Of a stretch of DNA of 5,128 nt, positions 1-5,128 are shown piece by piece (the first letter of the stretch is position 1; every line of letters starts with the position of its first letter). The position numbers and the translations under genes were made by a program. Under the pieces are notes generated by a model that saw only the letters and a program-made list of their open reading frames with translations, was not told where the DNA came from and made no database searches. The stretch comes from a bacterium (GTDB lineage Bacteria; DYJV01; JALVYZ01). The stretch spans positions 1-5,128 of the forward strand of contig JALVYZ010000042.1 in assembly GCA_027037705.1 (NCBI GenBank), in the 5' to 3' direction.

Positions 1-256
1 TCTTAATAAAAGAGTGCAATATCACTATTTTTTGTCCTTTTTGATAGCAAAATATACTTCTTCCTATACCTTCTTTACCTTTTGCCCTTATTTCTAAAAG
101 TCCATTATCCAAATGCTTAATATAAGGTTCTCCTATAGCAGGACCAAGTTCTTGTATAAGCTCAAAAATATGTAACAACTTTGCTAAAATTTTTGGTGGA
201 AACTTTAAAGTTTCTTTTTCTACTTTTTCGTTAAAAAATAATATTTGCCATTTCAT
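1..256 (-). CDS. higB: HigB-like toxin (RelE/ParE superfamily, Gp49 type), 5' part; gene runs off the left edge
   Basis: About 85 codons are visible, read leftward from ATG at 256. The protein begins MKWQILFFNEKVEKE and contains LLEIRAKGKEGIGRSIF followed by a strand ending VILHSFIKK. The pattern L.E.RAKGK.G..R...C, then a VILH.F.KK strand, is typical of the phage-derived Gp49/HigB branch of the RelE toxins. These are ribosome-associated mRNA endonucleases paired with an HTH antitoxin (HigA). In this branch the toxin gene usually comes first, so the antitoxin should lie just beyond position 1; it is not visible. The last 20-30 residues, expected to be Lys/Arg-rich, are also missing. No Shine-Dalgarno precedes the ATG, and a candidate promoter would place the transcript start at about the ATG, so leaderless translation is possible. 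The gene lies outside the duplicated replicon. The family is fairly sure; the TA role is inferred from family. Confidence 0.8.
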   Translation of the reverse strand, partial: MKWQILFFNEKVEKETLKFPPKILAKLLHIFELIQELGPAIGEPYIKHLDNGLLEIRAKGKEGIGRSIFCYQKGQKIVILHSFIK

Positions 257-262
257 AATGCT

Positions 263-291
263 ATGTTATCAAAAATGATAACTTATTGCAA
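263..291 (-). promoter_or_regulatory. Candidate promoter and palindromic operator of the higB-like gene
   Basis: A perfect inverted repeat, GTTATCA-AAAA-TGATAAC (265-282), lies 8 bp upstream of the toxin start. On the minus strand a -35-like TTGCAA (291-286), a 17-bp spacer and a -10-like TAACAT (268-263) overlap it, putting the transcript start near 256. HigA and similar antitoxins repress their own operons through palindromes of this kind. The palindrome is seen; the regulator and promoter are inferred. Confidence 0.5.
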
Positions 292-341
292 ACAATTACT
301 TAACATAATTTTTTTACTATACAAAATGATATCGTATTGCA
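272..341 (+). repeat. Pair of 19-bp direct repeats bridging toxin operator and replicon edge
   Basis: AAAATGATAACTTATTGCA (272-290) recurs as AAAATGATATCGTATTGCA (323-341), 17 of 19 identical and 51 bp apart, about five helical turns. The first copy overlaps the palindrome upstream of higB. The second lies inside the duplicated unit, where its counterpart at 3323-3341 keeps only the distal part. It could be a second regulator site or a relic of the recombination that joined the TA region to the replicon. Confidence 0.45.
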
Positions 342-362
342 TATCCAAATAAACTGAGAAGT

Positions 363-491
363 AGTATAAAAATGAGTTTTTAAACTATAAATCCGATACA
401 ATTTAAGTATAATATAGTATAATTTTAGTATAAATAGTGTCTAAATTTAGTATAATGAGGTATATAAAATCGGCATAAAAAAGTAGTATAA
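363..491 (+). repeat. AGTATAA heptamer array, helically phased; candidate centromere or operator
   Basis: Exact AGTATAA occurs at 363, 406, 416, 427, 449 and 485. Variants are GGTATAT at 459 and GGCATAA at 472. Start-to-start steps from 406 are 10, 11, 22, 10, 13 and 13, so most sites face the same side of the helix. The array ends about 75 bp before the start codon of the HTH-coiled-coil gene. Par centromeres such as parC, and the pSK1 par upstream region, are short direct repeats placed this way. The GTATAA cores also resemble -10 elements and the region is very AT-rich, so a promoter cluster or an unwinding region are alternatives. The same spacing is kept in unit 2. The rest of 292-566 holds no gene that I can support. 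Confidence 0.6.
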
Positions 492-506
492 ATTTTGTTT
501 CAAAAA

Positions 507-559
507 ATGACGAAATTCACTCCCCTATTATAATAAATTAATAATTAAATTACTAGGAG
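507..559 (+). promoter_or_regulatory. Weak candidate promoter and clear RBS for the HTH-coiled-coil gene
   Basis: TATAAT at 529-534 has a poor -35 (ATGACG, 507-512) 16 bp upstream. The promoter is uncertain, and the unit 2 sequence here is even less like consensus. The ribosome binding site AGGAG (555-559), 7 nt before ATG 567, is strong and fixes the start; unit 2 has the same AGGAG at 3554-3558 with the same spacing. The promoter lies directly downstream of the AGTATAA array, which would suit autorepression by the protein it drives. Confidence 0.45.
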
Positions 560-566
560 CACTTGT

Positions 567-1160
567 ATGGAAGACTACAAATACTCAACAATTGAAGAAA
601 TTATCAAAAAAAATTCTCACCTAAAAAATGAAGAACTTGCAAAAAAAATTGGAAAAAGTATCTCTTGGGTAAAAGCCTTTAAAGCCTTTATGAGAGCTGA
701 AGACAAAGAAAAATATAGAGATACAAAAAATCCAATTTATAAAGCAATTTATAACATTTGGATTAAAGACCCAAAAGCTCAAAAAAAAGAAGAAGAAAAA
801 AATTTGATAAAAAAACTACAACAAAAATTAGAAGAGTGTGAAGACCTGCTGGAAGACTATGAAAATGATTTTTTTGAGTGCAGTGACAAATACAAAGAAC
901 TTAAAGAAAAATATGACTATCTCTTAAAAAACCTTGAAAAAGAAAAAGAAAAAATTGAAACTAAATTAAAAGAAAAATATTCACATCTTGTAGAAGAATG
1001 GGTTGAAGCAAAACACCAGTTAGAACAAGAAAAACTTGAATACTATGGAATGAAGAACGAATATTACCAAGATTACCGAAAATTAACATTGACTATTAAA
1101 GTATTGACAATTATTAGTGGAATAGAATTTATTATATGCTTATTTAAATTTACTCATTAA
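567..1160 (+). CDS. HTH-coiled coil-membrane anchor protein, copy 1; candidate single-protein plasmid segregation factor
   Basis: I do not recognise this 197-residue protein as a named family. Residues about 8-44 form a helix-turn-helix, with LKNEELAKKIGKSISWVKAF matching the recognition region of ParB/Spo0J- and KorB-like HTHs. Residues about 72-172 are a long Lys/Glu-rich coiled coil with Cys91 and Cys105. Residues about 175-195 are hydrophobic, so the chain could be tethered in the inner membrane with its DNA-binding end in the cytoplasm. The hydrophobic stretch carries Lys178 and Glu187 and a Cys191, all kept in copy 2. An AGTATAA array lies upstream and a replication origin downstream. 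HTH plus coiled coil beside direct repeats recalls the one-protein Par of pSK1, which has no such anchor that I know of. Alternatives are a membrane-bound repressor or a copy-number regulator. The domain layout is confident; the function is inferred. Confidence 0.75.
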   Translation: MEDYKYSTIEEIIKKNSHLKNEELAKKIGKSISWVKAFKAFMRAEDKEKYRDTKNPIYKAIYNIWIKDPKAQKKEEEKNLIKKLQQKLEECEDLLEDYENDFFECSDKYKELKEKYDYLLKNLEKEKEKIETKLKEKYSHLVEEWVEAKHQLEQEKLEYYGMKNEYYQDYRKLTLTIKVLTIISGIEFIICLFKFTH

Positions 1161-1179
1161 AAGCCATTTAGAGCGTTTT
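1160..1179 (+). repeat. Two 10-bp tandem repeats at the 3' end of copy 1 HTH gene
   Basis: AAAGCCATTT (1160-1169) is followed directly by AGAGCGTTTT (1170-1179). Unit 2 has three such 10-mers at the same place (4153-4182), so the number varies between copies. The first repeat begins on the last base of the stop codon. Confidence 0.4.
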
Positions 1180-1197
1180 TACCCCCTTTAGGCTATC

Positions 1198-1275
1198 TTA
1201 CCCCTTAAAATTCTCTCGCGTGGCTCAGAGGGGCTGGAAAGGGCATAAAATGAGCTATTTTTTTATAAGGGGTAA
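1198..1275 (+). ncRNA. Conserved structured element with GC-rich island; candidate RNA or nicking/origin structure
   Basis: A perfect 10-bp inverted repeat, TTACCCCTTA (1198-1207) and TAAGGGGTAA (1266-1275), encloses 58 bp. Inside, CTCTCGCGTGGCTCAGAG (1213-1230) can form a small hairpin (CTCT/AGAG). In unit 2 the next outer pair is C-G where unit 1 has T-G. The core 1213-1256 is identical in both units and about 57% GC in an otherwise very AT-rich sequence. No standard RNA family comes to mind. Conservation beyond that of the flanking coding coiled coil suggests selection on structure or on a DNA-binding site. It could be part of the transcript leaving the upstream gene, a small RNA, or a DNA element of the origin or transfer machinery. 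Confidence 0.45.
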
Positions 1276-1294
1276 TCTTAACTCAAAAAAGTAG
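1250..1294 (+). CDS. Possible 14-residue leader peptide (MSYFFIRGNLNSKK)
   Basis: ATG 1250 follows AAAGGG (1238-1243) with a 6-nt gap, an acceptable ribosome binding site. The ORF ends at TAG 1292-1294. Unit 2 keeps frame, length and sequence (MSYFFIRGNLSSKK), with one Asn/Ser change and a TAG-to-TAA stop swap. The 3' arm of the 10-bp inverted repeat lies inside the ORF, so a ribosome here would open that structure, as in attenuation leaders. Only 45 nt are involved and two sequences are compared, so this may be chance within a conserved element. Confidence 0.25.
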   Translation: MSYFFIRGNLNSKK

Positions 1295-1482
1295 CTTTAA
1301 AGAGAGACTAAAAAAAGACTTTCTTTAATCCAAAGACTTTCAATGTAATCCAAGAGCTTTTGGAAAATAATTCTCAAAATAGAGTTACGAAGTTAAGAAA
1401 AAGGGTCAAAGTCTCTATAAAGTCTCTTTGCTAAATAAAAGATACTTACCTTCTCTTAGTAGTAGTTTTATTTTTTCTTGAA
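1276..1482 (+). other. Conserved gene-less stretch with short internal repeats
   Basis: No credible ORF is seen on either strand. Across 1191-1405 the two units differ at only about five positions. Internal repeats include AAAGACTTTC at 1314-1323 and 1332-1341, TAATCC at 1326 and 1346 (20 bp apart), and AAAGTCTCT at 1408-1416 and 1419-1427. The last pair is altered in unit 2. The position between the segregation gene and the iterons suggests part of the origin or an untranslated RNA. Confidence 0.4.
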
Positions 1483-1522
1483 ATGTTAGTCCAAAAGCGT
1501 TAGCTTTTGGCTCACCTATTGG
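1483..1522 (+). other. Perfect 8-bp stem-loop with conserved flanks (hairpin family, member 1)
   Basis: ATGTTAGT precedes CCAAAAGC-GTTA-GCTTTTGG (1491-1510), followed by CTCACCTATTGG. Unit 2 has two related hairpins at 4485-4524 and 4544-4583 with the same flanks but different stems that still pair. No T-run follows, so it is not a terminator. AGCTTTTG here could also pair with CAAAAGCT at 1533-1540. A folded single-stranded DNA or an RNA structure is the likely object of selection. Confidence 0.6.
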
Positions 1523-1575
1523 ATAAACTTTTCAAAAGCTATTTACTTACGAATATTATATTAATATACTTACTT

Positions 1576-1601
1576 TACGCGCGCGCGCGCGCGCGTGTAT
1601 A
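1576..1601 (+). repeat. (CG)9 tract in a 26-bp alternating purine-pyrimidine run (Z-DNA prone)
   Basis: Nine CG dinucleotides (1578-1595) sit within T-ACG...CGTGTATA alternation. The unit 2 equivalent has four (4639-4646), so the tract length changes. A perfect AT palindrome TATATTAATATA (1557-1568) lies just upstream. The tract may absorb supercoiling beside the origin. A TATAAT at 1609-1614 follows, so length changes could also alter spacing of a weak promoter. Confidence 0.7.
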
Positions 1602-1644
1602 GTGTCTTATATAATATCTTGTAATATGTAATATGTTGGGGCTC

Positions 1645-1672
1645 AAAAAGTCCGAAATTTCGGGTTTTTTTT
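1645..1672. terminator. Bidirectional intrinsic terminator before the iterons
   Basis: The self-complementary CCGAAATTTCGG (1652-1663) is preceded by A5 (1645-1649) and followed by T8 (1665-1672). In unit 2 the stem is one pair stronger (CCCGAAATTTCGGG, 4702-4715). It would stop transcripts entering the iterons from the left, and any antisense transcript leaving them. Its conservation implies that the region to its left is transcribed. Confidence 0.75.
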
Positions 1673-1677
1673 ATTTT

Positions 1678-1797
1678 AACTATGACATTTTCAGGGTAAA
1701 CTATGACATTTTCAGGGTAAACTATGACATTTTCAGGGTGTGAACTATGACATTTTCAGGGTAAACTATGACATTTTCAGGGTAAACTATGACATAT
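1678..1797 (+). repeat. Iteron array of the replication origin: five 21-bp repeats plus a partial one
   Basis: Full iterons start at 1678, 1699, 1720, 1743 and 1764 with core ACTATGACATTTTCAGGGT. A partial one (AACTATGACAT) starts at 1785, and a further AACTATG follows at 1798. A 2-bp TG insert separates the third and fourth repeats (1741-1742); the rest are exactly 21 bp, two helical turns, apart. Rep_3 initiators bind such repeats to open the origin and also use them for copy-number control by pairing of Rep-bound origins. The rep gene begins 64 bp further on. The last base of repeats 1, 2, 4 and 5 is A; in unit 2 it is G. Confidence 0.9.
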
Positions 1798-1804
1798 AAC
1801 TATG

Positions 1805-1839
1805 TCTGTCTTGACAGAATATCATTTTTAATCTATAAT
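1805..1839 (+). promoter_or_regulatory. rep promoter with overlapping operator-like inverted repeat
   Basis: TTGACA (1811-1816), a 17-bp spacer and TATAAT (1834-1839) match the sigma70 consensus exactly. TCTGTC-TT-GACAGA (1805-1818) is a perfect inverted repeat that covers the -35. It follows an iteron-like AACTATG, so RepB dimers could bind here and repress rep, as known for RepA/RepE-type initiators. Transcription would start at about 1846, only some 15 nt before ATG 1861. Confidence 0.8.
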
Positions 1840-1860
1840 TCTTTTAAAAAAAGAGAGGAA

Positions 1861-2955
1861 ATGGCAAAATTCATTGAAGTTAATGGAAATTTAAAAGTCA
1901 GAAAAGCTGATTTAATAGTTAGAGCAAGATATAAATTAAATCCTTTAAGTTTAAAATTTATAACCACACTTATTGCAGGACTTAAAAGAAGTGATGATAT
2001 CAATGAAATTTATCAATTTAGAGTAAAAGATTTTAAAGAACTTACAAAATTAAAAAGAAAAGATTTATATTGGGCTGTAAAAGAAGCTCTAAAAGAACTT
2101 TTAGAAAAGCCTATTTATATACCAAAAGGTAAAACACCAGATGATAATAGCTTTTTAATGCTTAATTGGGTAGCAAGTGCAGAATATAAAGAAGGAGAAG
2201 GAATAGTTGAGTTTGAAATAAGTAATAAATTAAGACCATACCTTTTAGAAGCAAAAGAAAAATTTTTAAAATATAAACTTGAAAATATTCTACCACTTAA
2301 AAGTGGATATTCAATTAGAATGTATGAGATCTTAAAAGATTGGCTTGAACTTAATAGCAGATATGGAAATAAAGCTGAAAAAATTATTAAAGTAGATGAA
2401 TTAAGAGAAATACTTGAAATACCAAGAAGTTACCAATATGGAGATATAAAAAGAAGAATAATTGAAAAATCTAAAAAAGAACTAATAGAACACACAGACA
2501 TAATATTTGACTATGAAGAAATAAAAACAGGTAGAAAAGTGACTCATATAAAATTTATCATTCAACCAAATCCAAAAAAGAGCTTGCAGGAAAAGAAAAA
2601 AGCTCAAAATTATGATTTAAAAAGCCTAAAACACTTTGTATCTCTCTTAAGAAAGAATTATAGCGGAAATTATAGAACATTTGGATATAAAACAATAGAT
2701 AACAAAATTTATTGGCTAAAAATAAGTGGTGATGGTTTAATATATGGCACAGGAGAACACGGACTAAAAGATTTTAATTCTCTTGAAAGTGAAAAAATTT
2801 ATAAAATCTGGTATGAAATTGCAAAAGAAAATGAAGAATATTATGAACTACTAAAAAATGGTCTTGATTTTGAAGATGTTTATAAAAGAGATGCTGACTT
2901 TAGATTAAGTTTTAAGAAAATAATTGAGGAACTAAAAGAAAAAGGGAAAATATGA
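1861..2955 (+). CDS. repB: RepB replication initiator (Rep_3 family) with C-terminal extension
   Basis: This 364-residue protein binds the iterons just upstream and opens the plasmid origin. Residues about 10-115 match the first winged helix of Rep_3 initiators, including KADLIVRARYKLNPLSLKFI. Residues about 118-236 match the second, with the family's hallmark LKSGYSIRMYEILKDWL (146-162). Residues about 240-364 are an extra tail, beyond the usual 230-250 residue core, with KIYWLKISGDGLIYG in the middle and a charged helical end; I do not know its role. I chose ATG 1861 because it follows GAGAGG and because the in-frame ATG at 1789 lies inside the iterons, upstream of the promoter. The spacing to GAGG is short (2 nt). 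The stop overlaps the next gene by ATGA, so the two are probably translationally coupled. Confidence 0.93.
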   Translation: MAKFIEVNGNLKVRKADLIVRARYKLNPLSLKFITTLIAGLKRSDDINEIYQFRVKDFKELTKLKRKDLYWAVKEALKELLEKPIYIPKGKTPDDNSFLMLNWVASAEYKEGEGIVEFEISNKLRPYLLEAKEKFLKYKLENILPLKSGYSIRMYEILKDWLELNSRYGNKAEKIIKVDELREILEIPRSYQYGDIKRRIIEKSKKELIEHTDIIFDYEEIKTGRKVTHIKFIIQPNPKKSLQEKKKAQNYDLKSLKHFVSLLRKNYSGNYRTFGYKTIDNKIYWLKISGDGLIYGTGEHGLKDFNSLESEKIYKIWYEIAKENEEYYELLKNGLDFEDVYKRDADFRLSFKKIIEELKEKGKI

Positions 2956-3182
2956 GTAAATTAGATAAACAAAAAGAAAAAGTCTCAAATTATAGACTTA
3001 TTTGGGGTTTAACTCTGACAGCTCTTTTTGGAATGATAGCATTTATATTCAATTCATTTGATAAATTACCTTTAGTCAAGCAATATTTGGTAACTTTTGG
3101 ATTTGTTGCTATAATCGTTATAGTCTTATATTTGAGTTGGAAACTCAAAAAAGAAACTGATAAATTGGAGGATTTAGAATGA
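2952..3182 (+). CDS. Small membrane protein, two predicted transmembrane helices
   Basis: This 76-residue protein is not a family I can name. A short charged N-terminus (MSKLDKQKEK) precedes two hydrophobic spans at about 15-35 and 43-63, separated by NSFDKLPLVKQ. The tail KLKKETDKLEDLE is charged and could be a short coiled coil. The positive charge just after each span suggests a helical hairpin in the inner membrane. The start overlaps the rep stop (ATGA) and has AAGGG 5 nt upstream, so expression follows rep. It could anchor replication or segregation proteins, act as a holin- or toxin-like protein, or serve exclusion. No signal peptide cleavage site is evident. Confidence 0.7.
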   Translation: MSKLDKQKEKVSNYRLIWGLTLTALFGMIAFIFNSFDKLPLVKQYLVTFGFVAIIVIVLYLSWKLKKETDKLEDLE

Positions 3183-3280
3183 ATGGGATACTATTAGGAA
3201 TAGTTGGAGGATTAATTGCATTAATAGGAATTATTGTAATTTTTAATCAAGAGAAACATTCTGCAGAACATAAAAAATAA
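3179..3280 (+). CDS. 33-residue single-span membrane miniprotein
   Basis: The protein starts MNGILLGIVGGLIALIGIIV and ends in a polar tail rich in Lys and His (QEKHSAEHKK). One hydrophobic span covers residues about 3-22, with glycines at 7, 10, 11 and 17 that include a GxxxG. It opens with an ATGA overlap with the preceding stop and has a perfect GGAGG (3167-3171) 7 nt upstream, which makes translation likely despite its size. It is the third gene of a rep operon of overlapping genes. The glycine pattern favours helix-helix packing, perhaps with the 76-residue protein. The size and shape also resemble small type I toxins or phage/plasmid membrane peptides. Function unknown. Confidence 0.6.
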   Translation: MNGILLGIVGGLIALIGIIVIFNQEKHSAEHKK

Positions 3281-3364
3281 TTTTTTTTGTTAAATTTACT
3301 TAACATAATATATTTACTATATAATAAGATATCATATTGCATATCCAAACATAATGAAGAATAT

Positions 3365-3493
3365 AGTATAAAAACAAACTTTTAAATATTGAACTCTATA
3401 TAATTTAGGTATAATCTAGTATGATTTTAGTATAAGCAATGGCAAAATTTAGTATAATAGGGTATATAAAATCTGTATAAAAAAGTAGTATAA
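3365..3493 (+). repeat. AGTATAA heptamer array of unit 2
   Basis: Sites start at 3365, 3408 (GGTATAA), 3418 (AGTATGA), 3429, 3451, 3461 (GGTATAT), 3474 (TGTATAA) and 3487. The steps 10, 11, 22, 10, 13 and 13 from 3408 are identical to unit 1, while bases between the sites have changed (for example 3436-3447 against 434-445). Conserved spacing with drifting linkers points to protein binding. The rest of 3281-3565 is AT-rich without a gene; AGGAG at 3554-3558 is the ribosome binding site of the next gene. Confidence 0.6.
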
Positions 3494-3565
3494 ATTTTGT
3501 TTCAAAAAATGATGAATTTCATTTCCCCATATTATATATAAAATATTATTACTAGGAGAACTTGT

Positions 3566-4153
3566 ATGGAAGACTACAAATACTCAACAATTGAAGAAAT
3601 TATCAAAAAAAATTCCCACCTAAAAAATGAAGAACTTGCAAAAAAAATTGGTAAAAGTATCTCTTGGGTAAAAGCCTTTAAGGCTTTTATGAGAGCTGAA
3701 AACAAAGAAAAATATAAAGATACAAAAAATCCTATTTACAAAGCAATCTATAATATTTGGATTAAAGACCCAAAAGCTCAAAAAAAAGAAGAAGAAAAAA
3801 ACTTGTTAAAAAAACTACAACAAGAATTAGGAGAATGTAAAAAACTGCTGAAATACTATGAAAATGATTTTTCTGAATGCAAAGACCAATACAAAAAACT
3901 AAAAAAAGACTATGACTATCTTTTGAAAAACTTTGAGAAAGAAAAAGAAAAAATTGAAAATAAATTAAAAGAAAAATACTCATATGTTGGAAAAGAATGG
4001 CTTAAAGCAAAAAACGAATTAGAAGAGGAAAAACTCAAATATTATGCAATGAGAGATGAATATTATGAAAACGAAAGAAATTTAAAATTGACTATTAAAA
4101 CGTTGATAATTATTATCGTATTGGAAACTATTATGTGTATTTTTAAACATTAA
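3566..4153 (+). CDS. HTH-coiled coil-membrane anchor protein, copy 2
   Basis: This 195-residue protein is homologous to the one at 567-1160. The first 80 residues differ at only two positions (46 D/N, 51 R/K) and most base changes there are silent, so the DNA-binding half is under purifying selection. From residue 81 about 42 of 115 aligned residues differ. Many are charge reversals in the coiled coil: E92K, D93K, E96K, E111K, E114K, E143K, E147K and E158K, with K87E and K115D the other way. Cys91, Cys105, Lys178, Glu187 and Cys191 are kept, and the anchor (about 175-193) is more hydrophobic (TLIIIIVLETIMCIF). It has the same ribosome binding site and spacing as copy 1. I infer the same DNA site but separate self-association. 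Confidence 0.75.
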   Translation: MEDYKYSTIEEIIKKNSHLKNEELAKKIGKSISWVKAFKAFMRAENKEKYKDTKNPIYKAIYNIWIKDPKAQKKEEEKNLLKKLQQELGECKKLLKYYENDFSECKDQYKKLKKDYDYLLKNFEKEKEKIENKLKEKYSYVGKEWLKAKNELEEEKLKYYAMRDEYYENERNLKLTIKTLIIIIVLETIMCIFKH

Positions 4154-4182
4154 AAGCTATTTAAAGCCATTTAGAGCCATTT
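4153..4182 (+). repeat. Three 10-bp tandem repeats after copy 2 HTH gene
   Basis: AAAGCTATTT, AAAGCCATTT and AGAGCCATTT follow one another without gaps. Unit 1 has two. The period equals one helical turn. Slippage or a small binding site are both possible. Confidence 0.45.
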
Positions 4183-4200
4183 TAACCCTTTTAGGCTATC

Positions 4201-4278
4201 TTACCCCTTAAAAACCTCTCGCGTGGCTCAGAGGGGCTGGAAAGGGCATAAAATGAGCTATTTTTTTATAAGGGGTAA
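4201..4278 (+). ncRNA. Conserved structured element of unit 2
   Basis: TTACCCCTTA (4201-4210) pairs with TAAGGGGTAA (4269-4278), as in unit 1, around the same GC-rich core. The inner hairpin is CCTCT/AGAGG, one pair better than in unit 1. GAGCTA (4256-4260 region) can also pair with TAGCTC about 4281-4287. No known RNA family is recognised. Confidence 0.45.
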
Positions 4279-4297
4279 TCTTAGCTCAAAAAAGTAA
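4253..4297 (+). CDS. Possible 14-residue leader peptide, copy 2 (MSYFFIRGNLSSKK)
   Basis: This matches the ORF at 1250-1294 in frame, length and AAAGGG ribosome binding site, with stop TAA instead of TAG. See that entry for the case and the doubts. Confidence 0.25.
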   Translation: MSYFFIRGNLSSKK

Positions 4298-4484
4298 CTT
4301 TAAAGAGAGACTAAAAAAAGACTTTCCTTAATCCAAAGACTTTCAATGTAATCCAAGAGCTTTTGGAAAATAATTCTCAAAATAGAGTTACGAAGTTAAG
4401 AAAAAGGGTCAAAGCCTTATAAAGTTTCTTTTCTCAATAAAAGATACTTACCTTCCCTTAGCAGTAGTTTTATTTTTTCTTGAA
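4279..4484 (+). other. Conserved gene-less stretch of unit 2
   Basis: Counterpart of 1276-1482. It keeps the AAAGACTTTC pair and both TAATCC sites. The AAAGTCTCT pair is replaced by AAAGCCTTA and AAAGTTTCT. No ORF is supported on either strand. Confidence 0.35.
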
Positions 4485-4524
4485 ATGTTAGTCCAAGACC
4501 GGTAGGTCTTGGTTCACCTATTGA
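4485..4524 (+). other. Stem-loop, hairpin family member 2
   Basis: ATGTTAGT, then CCAAGACC-GGTA-GGTCTTGG (4493-4512), then TTCACCTATTGA. The 8-bp stem is perfect. Stem bases 5-7 differ from unit 1 on both arms, so pairing is kept by paired changes. Confidence 0.6.
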
Positions 4525-4543
4525 TTACTCTTTATTAAATCAG

Positions 4544-4583
4544 ATGTTAGTCCACGAGCGTTAGCGAGTGGTTCACCTATTGG
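4544..4583 (+). other. Stem-loop, hairpin family member 3, with tandem G-A mismatch
   Basis: ATGTTAGT, then CCACGAGC-GTTA-GCGAGTGG (4552-4571), then TTCACCTATTGG. Four outer and two inner pairs are Watson-Crick. The two middle positions oppose GA to GA, which in RNA or folded DNA can form stable sheared pairs. It starts 59 bp after member 2. The flank that follows (ATAAAATTTTCAAAAGC) matches that of the single unit 1 hairpin, so member 2 is the probable insertion or this pair a local duplication. Confidence 0.55.
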
Positions 4584-4636
4584 ATAAAATTTTCAAAAGC
4601 TATTTACTTACGTATATTATATTAATACACTTACTT

Positions 4637-4652
4637 TACGCGCGCGTGTATA
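4637..4652 (+). repeat. (CG)4 tract, short form of the unit 1 alternating run
   Basis: TACGCGCGCGTGTATA alternates for 16 bp and has four CG units against nine in unit 1. Flanks on both sides are the same, so the difference is a pure repeat-number change. Confidence 0.65.
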
Positions 4653-4695
4653 GTGTCTTATATAATATCTTGTAATATGTAATATGTTGGGGCTC

Positions 4696-4720
4696 AAAAA
4701 GCCCGAAATTTCGGGTTTTT
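4696..4720. terminator. Bidirectional intrinsic terminator of unit 2
   Basis: A5 (4696-4700), the perfect palindrome CCCGAAATTTCGGG (4702-4715) and T5 (4716-4720). The T-run is shorter than in unit 1 but the stem is longer by one Watson-Crick pair. Confidence 0.75.
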
Positions 4721-4728
4721 ATTGATTT

Positions 4729-4848
4729 AATTATGACATTTTCAGGGTGAACTATGACATTTTCAGGGTGAACTATGACATTTTCAGGGTGTGAACTATG
4801 ACATTTTCAGGGTGAACTATGACATTTTCAGGGTGAACTATGACATTT
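4729..4848 (+). repeat. Iteron array of unit 2: five 21-bp repeats plus a partial one
   Basis: Full iterons start at 4729 (AATTATG variant), 4750, 4771, 4794 and 4815, with a partial at 4836 and AACTATG at 4849. The 2-bp TG insert again follows the third repeat (4792-4793). The last base of every full repeat is G. The shared core suggests that both Rep copies could bind both arrays. Confidence 0.9.
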
Positions 4849-4855
4849 AACTATG

Positions 4856-4890
4856 TCTGTCTTGACTGAACATCATTTTTAATCTATAAT
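4856..4890 (+). promoter_or_regulatory. rep promoter of unit 2, with altered -35 and operator
   Basis: TTGACT (4862-4867), 17-bp spacer, TATAAT (4885-4890). Compared with unit 1, one A-to-T change at 4867 moves the -35 off consensus and also breaks the inverted repeat (TCTGTC-TT-GACTGA, 4856-4869). Expression and autorepression of this copy may therefore differ. Confidence 0.7.
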
Positions 4891-4911
4891 TCTTTTAAAA
4901 AAAGAGAGGAA

Positions 4912-5128
4912 ATGGCAAAATTCATTGAAGTTAATGGAAATTTAAAAGTCAGAAAAGCTGATTTAATAGTTAGAGCAAGATATAAATTAAATCCTCTAAG
5001 TTTAAAATTTATAACCACACTTATTGCAGGACTTAAAAGAAGTGATGATATCAATGAAATTTATCAATTTAGAGTAAAAGATTTTAAAGAACTTACAAAA
5101 TTAAAAAGAAAAGATTTATATTGGGCTG
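4912..5128 (+). CDS. repB: RepB replication initiator copy 2, 5' part; gene runs off the right edge
   Basis: The 72 visible codons give MAKFIEVNGNLKVRKADLIV onward, identical in protein sequence to the first 72 residues of the initiator at 1861; the only base change is a silent one (CCTTTA to CCTCTA). This covers most of the first winged helix. It has the same GAGAGG ribosome binding site. Whether the copy is intact cannot be told here. Two near-identical initiators on one molecule should cross-act on both iteron arrays. Confidence 0.88.
   Translation, partial: MAKFIEVNGNLKVRKADLIVRARYKLNPLSLKFITTLIAGLKRSDDINEIYQFRVKDFKELTKLKRKDLYWA

Follow-up and report, generated by a model that had tools for sequence, protein, structure and literature searches.

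The gene at 567-1160 (+ strand) of the window, by which we mean the whole 5,128-bp contig analysed here, encodes a 197-residue protein made up of a ParB-type helix-turn-helix (HTH) head, as judged from sequence profiles, a long helical rod and a hydrophobic C-terminal tail. Our leading reading, which we hold tentatively, is that this gene would serve a small theta-type Nautiliaceae plasmid (Rep_3, with iterons) as a stability module, and that segregation would follow from anchoring the plasmid to the membrane. The long helix would allow the protein to dimerise or oligomerise, the ParB-type HTHs would bind a phased repeat array in front of their own gene, also repressing its promoter, and the hydrophobic tail would keep the complex of plasmid and protein on the inner membrane. 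In the absence of a motor, plasmid copies would be spread along the growing envelope and prevented from clumping, which is what has been proposed for RocS and possibly for pSK1 Par. We infer array binding, autoregulation, oligomerisation, membrane insertion and the effect on stability from the features described below.

Two replicon copies and a probable complete circle

The window is one contig of a 496-contig, 2.05-Mb genome. It is not a single simple intact plasmid, since two diverged mosaic replicon copies (300-3290 and 3296-5128) lie head to tail, about 3.0 kb apart. These are 74-99% identical depending on the segment, and each comprises the array, the HTH-rod-tail gene, a conserved non-coding stretch of some 600-700 bp, iterons and rep. 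Copy 2 resembles a related contig, L007, at the array (91-97%), and copy 1 at the iterons and the start of rep (96-99%). The two-replicon contig may be a true cointegrate or an assembly join.

L007 (JALUZI010000077.1, 3,155 bp) has ends that share an exact 127-nt overlap and is therefore most simply a complete 3,028-bp circle. Its gene order matches that of the window: iterons, Rep_3, a 76-aa protein with two transmembrane (TM) segments, a 33-aa one-TM peptide, the array and the HTH-rod-tail protein. Apart from this last gene, L007 encodes just Rep and the two small TM proteins of its operon. The preliminary description had noted the lack of an ATPase gene in the window. This was borne out, and it extends to the circle, the whole 3,028 bp of which is devoid of ParA, ParM, TubZ or any other NTPase. 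Among larger Rep_3 relatives, ParA (L006) or ParA-ParB (L059) is found near rep, so a maintenance gene in the neighbourhood of rep suits this backbone. As a counterpoint to tethering, so small a plasmid (3 kb) may be present in many copies and do without partition.

The open reading frame itself is real. It is preceded by a strong Shine-Dalgarno sequence (AGGAG), a second copy of 195 aa, 77% identical to the first, lies at 3566-4153 (+), and a third is found on L007 (2254-2841). The three copies are 77-86% identical, all intact and under purifying selection (whole-protein dN/dS of copy 1 versus the others, 0.27-0.30). Residues 1-65 are 95-97% identical (dN/dS 0.04-0.08), and dN/dS is 0.17-0.35 in the rod and 0.16-1.3 in the tail; the HTH is thus nearly invariant while the rod drifts. 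Because the family has three known members, all from one plasmid type, arguments from conservation rest on few sequences.

The gene stands, as first described, downstream of the phased array (362-491) and upstream of the origin, whose iterons (21-bp units, AACTATGACATTTTCAGGGTA) lie at 1678-1795 (+). A promoter motif, TTGACA-17-TATAAT (1811-1839, +), precedes rep (1861-2955, +), which encodes a 364-aa Rep_3-family initiator (Pfam Rep3_N 2.9e-33, Rep3_C 4e-19) with its nearest plasmid relatives in Nautiliales. The gene for the 76-aa two-TM protein (2952-3182, +) has a start that overlaps the rep stop, and that for the 33-aa one-TM peptide (3179-3280, +; best 19-mer Kyte-Doolittle value, KD19, 3.06) likewise overlaps the stop of the 76-aa gene; dN/dS is 0.02 for each. 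In the second replicon copy, the iterons lie at 4732-4848 (+) and the rep reading frame (4912-5128, +) is cut by the contig end.

This arrangement lends itself to another explanation, in which a membrane-bound DNA-binding protein brings the replicon to the membrane for initiation, after the manner of p16.7 of phage phi29, an integral membrane protein that recruits viral DNA (PMC4974454). In addition to this precedent, the gene is linked to an iteron origin on every copy and two more TM peptides are translationally coupled to rep. However, the related Rep_3 contigs L008 and L022 have rep without the HTH-rod-tail gene, and the array lies outside the iteron region. We regard such a replication organiser as improbable.

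The best plasmid relatives of Rep are those of Nitratiruptor and Nitrosophilus (about 49% identity), and the contigs closest by Rep are contigs of metagenome-assembled genomes (MAGs) binned under widely differing names. In addition, window positions 15-291 are 95% identical to a contig from a genome placed in the same family as a Nautiliaceae MAG. Judging from the Rep relatives and this match, the plasmid host probably belongs to the Nautiliaceae, which are deep-sea-vent bacteria, and the assignment of the contig to its present bin may be wrong. L007, L009 and L010, close Rep_3-family relatives, come from MAGs named Desulfurococcales, Gracilibacteria and Desulfurellales; mis-binning of these small plasmids is probable.

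The predicted DNA-binding head

The HTH spans residues 19-46 (621-704, +), as placed by AlphaFold2, profile searches and hhalign. The AlphaFold2 head is wingless, with helices at residues 9-15, 21-28, 32-43, 47-52 and 56-67 and a pLDDT of about 80-88 over residues 10-65. The sub-threshold Pfam matches that make sense are KorB and HTH_ParB, both at residues 15-47. When a profile of residues 1-73 was run against 21 Nautiliaceae-family genomes it gave four weak matches, three of which are the chromosomal ParB proteins of three Nautiliaceae genomes, each adjoining ParA and each matched at its HTH. In hhalign, the same profile aligned with the Nautiliaceae ParBs over residues 8-46, the HTH only (E 7e-5, Prob 63%). 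The head is 37% identical to the Nautiliaceae ParB HTH over 38 residues (TIEEIIKKNSHLKNEELAKKIGKSISWVKAFKAFMRAED on ParB HTH), with a shuffled Smith-Waterman P of about 0.002 or less. An independent plasmid ParB from L059 also aligned (hhalign E 1e-3), and control hhalign comparisons of the head with two unrelated HTH proteins were null. A ParB-like HTH, as originally proposed, is thus upheld by the profile search, both hhalign comparisons and the controls. VIA-align was non-discriminating: a KorB chain (8qa9_B; 38 residues, rmsd 2.2, Z 3.1) appears in its list, but so do many generic HTHs.

There is no match to PF02195, the ParB N-terminal CTP-binding domain, and the protein starts about 20 residues before the HTH. 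By sequence, then, the head is a ParB-type HTH without the CTP-binding domain of ParB.

The upstream repeat array

Array 1 (362-491, +), a putative operator or centromere upstream of the copy 1 gene, consists of direct GTATAA cores and degenerate units with a phasing of about 11 bp. The cores start at 364, 407, 417, 428, 450 and 486 (+). Its equivalent in the second replicon copy, array 2, occupies 3364-3493 (+), with GTATAA at 3366, 3409, 3430, 3452, 3475 and 3488. Within the 275 bp before the gene, GTATAA occurs 6, 6 and 7 times in the three copies, in one orientation, as against 0.5-0.6 expected from dinucleotide shuffles; the observed counts exceed the maximum of 2,000 shuffles. Identity at lags of 11, 22 and 33 bp is above that of shuffles (P = 0.0005, 0.012 and 0.007; P = 0.003, 0.06 and 0.036 when any period from 8 to 14 is allowed), the signal being strongest in copy 1. 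A plain any-lag test for an array is not significant in this short AT-rich DNA. Substitutions spare the cores: between copy 1 and the others they affect 2/48 core against 23/104 other positions (Fisher P 0.004) and 1/48 against 23/104 (P 0.001). No comparable GTATAA cluster was seen on five related contigs that lack the gene (L008-L011 and L022) or in the Nautiliales plasmid regions L005 and L006. The phased array of the preliminary description therefore stands, as one that is enriched, uniformly oriented, core-conserved and, in the contigs compared, specific to the gene.

Because the cores also contain the -10-like TATAAT, a promoter role and a protein-binding role are confounded here. The HTH protein might simply be an autoregulated transcription or copy-number regulator that binds the array to shut down its own promoter and might modulate rep as well; the rod and tail would then serve only for oligomerisation or for keeping the protein at the membrane as a sensor. 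In favour of this, the array sits immediately in front of the gene and overlaps -10-like sequences, and upstream operators are typical of autoregulators, KfrA-type HTH-coil autorepressors among them (PMC7821693). Taken by itself, the upstream array suits a plain autorepressor equally well. Repression, however, needs neither a long conserved rod nor a hydrophobic tail, and the array exceeds the typical length of an operator. On balance, we consider a mere regulator rather unlikely.

The array could also be an oriT-like site, the protein being a mobilisation accessory that would bring the plasmid to a membrane-located conjugation channel. On the Nautiliales Rep_3 contig L011, an unrelated HTH-coil-TM protein (1631-2074) is encoded directly upstream of a possible relaxase (2076-3962), and StbA of R388 couples stability with transfer (PMC3098194). 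Yet the complete circle L007 has no relaxase candidate, and the HTH heads of the L011 protein and the plasmid protein are not alike, which leaves mobilisation very improbable.

The rod and the tail

AlphaFold2, given three sequences only, predicts a single continuous helix over residues 69-196. Its first part, residues 69-172 (771-1082, +), is, from the model and its periodicity, a long amphipathic helix and probable coiled coil. The hydrophobic periodicity of the rod is significant, but its peak is at 3.56-3.6 and not 3.5, and the phase drifts past residue 108; pSK1 Par, a control for the same method, peaks at 3.50. A coiled coil is therefore likely, but with no plain heptad, and the predicted rod may be either a straighter bundle or a coil whose heptads are broken by stutters. 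The coiled coil of about 100 residues in the preliminary description is supported as a long continuous predicted helix.

The hydrophobic segment at residues 175-193 (1089-1145, +) is a candidate membrane anchor. The best 19-mer Kyte-Doolittle values of the three copies, 2.14 (copy 1), 2.36 and 2.46, all pass. Insertion energies are about +1.3 (copy 1), -0.5 and -0.2; these are rough estimates without length correction. The segment is uniformly hydrophobic with a low hydrophobic moment, and K178, E187 and K194 are invariant in the tail region of all three copies. Between copy 1 and L007, the tail is only 50% identical (dN/dS about 1.3) and its hydrophobicity is kept (KD 2.1-2.5). A membrane anchor is plausible on these grounds, although a true TM helix is marginal, most so in copy 1. 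Of the C-terminal anchor first described, the hydrophobic tail is present in all copies, whereas its TM prediction is weakened by the short core and the invariant Glu.

Alternatively, the tail might be a buried C-terminal helix for oligomerisation, with which the Glu and the short core would also be compatible; in that case the protein would be soluble and filament-forming, KfrA- or Par-like, and would stabilise the plasmid by bridging or by hitch-hiking on the nucleoid. The marginal insertion energy, Glu187 within the core and the continuous predicted helix 69-196 all agree with this. On the other hand, the tail keeps its hydrophobicity despite free sequence change, as a membrane segment would, and its hydrophobic moment is low. 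A buried helix seems to us quite unlikely.

Comparison with known systems

No match to the protein exceeded the cutoff in Pfam, NCBIfam, PHROGs or PDB sequences, all those seen being sub-threshold or compositional. Plasmids, phages, viral contigs and genome contigs yielded no full-length homologue beyond the plasmid type, the genome-contig search by the protein itself having used poor peptide patterns. None was found among the 60 genomes listed as relatives, and searches of 199 and 397 genomes sampled around a Nautiliaceae MAG gave coil or chance matches only. As a positive control, the L007 copy was recovered at 2.5e-119. Foldseek against the PDB gave no significant match with the whole model or the head alone. 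The contig L027 was checked as a homologue and rejected, as were PADLOC matches (LmuB 1.6e-4 and others), which are compositional and lie almost wholly on the coil. By these searches, the HTH-rod-tail protein is an orphan family.

Among the closest known systems is RocS of Streptococcus pneumoniae, in which the HTH, oligomerisation through the coil and the membrane helix are all required and which is nearly normal when a TM domain replaces its amphipathic helix (PMC11500499). The authors of that study propose membrane tethering of DNA for RocS and possibly for pSK1 Par, whose C-terminus is reportedly all but identical to the RocS/MinD amphipathic helix (PMC11500499). Like RocS, for which a mechanism without a cognate ATPase is proposed, the plasmid protein has an N-terminal HTH, a central coil and a C-terminal membrane-type tail. 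RocS, however, is chromosomal, with a winged HTH of the MerR type, DUF536 and a MinD-like amphipathic helix, whereas the plasmid protein has a wingless ParB-type HTH, a hydrophobic tail and no DUF536 match.

pSK1 Par (NC_014369; L033 988-1725) is likewise a single plasmid-encoded HTH-coil protein for segregation, adjoining rep, and as a sequence layout the plasmid protein does have HTH, coil and membrane-type tail in the Par/RocS order, in one chain with no motor. There is no detectable similarity between the two (hhalign E 0.46). DUF536 (PF04394) matches Par itself at 3e-6 and does not match the plasmid protein at E <= 1, and the coils differ in periodicity (3.50 against 3.56-3.6). Nor does the tail resemble the KKGFWSRLFGG of Par, a MinD-like C-terminal amphipathic helix. 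The preliminary statement that no described system has exactly this layout was nevertheless too strong, given that RocS and, by sequence, pSK1 Par are HTH-coil-C-terminal membrane helix proteins. By sequence comparison, the plasmid protein departs from them in its ParB-type HTH, its hydrophobic tail and the absence of DUF536.

StbA of R388 stabilises its plasmid without its ATPase by way of upstream 9-bp repeats set 2 bp apart, and links stability and transfer (PMC3098194). The array resembles these stbDRs, which are direct repeats with an 11-bp period (9 bp + 2) before StbA's own operon. StbA differs in being 141 aa, in an operon with StbB and tied to conjugation, and the HTH profile of the plasmid protein shows no homology to it (hhalign E 0.2). 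The plasmid protein thus appears to fall outside the Par/RocS and StbA families, and any functional likeness is at most by analogy.

ParB, KorB and Noc share its type of HTH; of these, the ParB paralogue Noc is a membrane tether for DNA (PMC8429893). Unlike these proteins, the plasmid protein is without a CTP-binding domain and without a ParA partner, none being encoded on the complete 3,028-bp circle; moreover, the anchor of Noc is an N-terminal amphipathic helix. TubY of pXO1-like plasmids combines an HTH, a helical bundle and a C-terminal membrane-binding tail (PMC7762940), but it is of the MerR type, acts beside TubR and TubZ, and has an amphipathic tail with a lysine cluster. KfrA-type proteins (N-terminal DNA-binding head, long alpha-helical tail, no anchor) are similar in layout; no KfrA profile is among the matches listed, and the tail here is hydrophobic.

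The precedents of RocS, StbA, Noc and TubY make a tethering stability module credible. More doubtful is the specific proposition of a motor-free one-protein system in Gram-negative thermophilic vent bacteria, in which a CTPase-less ParB-type HTH, a rod and a TM tail would fix the array in the envelope. If true, it would be a very small test case for whether one DNA-binding protein can segregate DNA merely by membrane tethering, the open question raised by RocS and pSK1 Par. A plasmid of 3,028 bp that has four genes, a defined array and a tail that can be transplanted would open that question to direct testing. It would also suggest that the HTH-coil-tail layout has been assembled at least twice from different DNA-binding heads.

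Other features of the plasmid

A rep-coupled two-TM protein of about 76 aa, usually followed by a one-TM peptide of 33-37 aa, is found in the window, L007 (1639-1967), L008 (5122-5349) and L022 (1537-1927). The rep-coupled TM proteins of these Rep_3 plasmids evolve very slowly (dN/dS about 0.02). Together with the tail protein, this makes three predicted membrane-associated products among the four of the minimal plasmid.

On L011, the HTH-coil protein has 147 aa and two TM segments, and the orphan next to it (628 aa, with a PHIHLIL motif) is a possible HUH nuclease or relaxase. Large orphan proteins similar to the latter occur on L054 and L055.

An Rfam search of the window gave no match. Its non-coding segments 1160-1660 and 4159-4720 are 96% identical over 259 nt, exceeding the conservation of much coding DNA; a strong fold is predicted near 1195-1275 in the former, which also has a (CG)n tract that varies in length and, at 1645-1670, a terminator. 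TTAGTCC-hairpin-TCACCTATTG, a repeat of about 40 nt, is present in the window (1480-1521, 4482-4523 and 4541-4582), in L007 (129-170 and 188-229) and in a genome of the Nautiliaceae family (contig C9 of G253, 3445-3501). Its stem shows compensatory changes between copies (CCAAAAGC/GCTTTTGG, CCAAGACC/GGTCTTGG, CCACGAGC/GCGAGTGG).

A HigB/Gp49-type toxin-like gene (PF05973, 1.7e-17) lies at 2-256 (-), cut by the contig end, with no antitoxin in view beside it in the window. Its DNA is 95% and 88% identical in two Nautiliaceae-family genomes.
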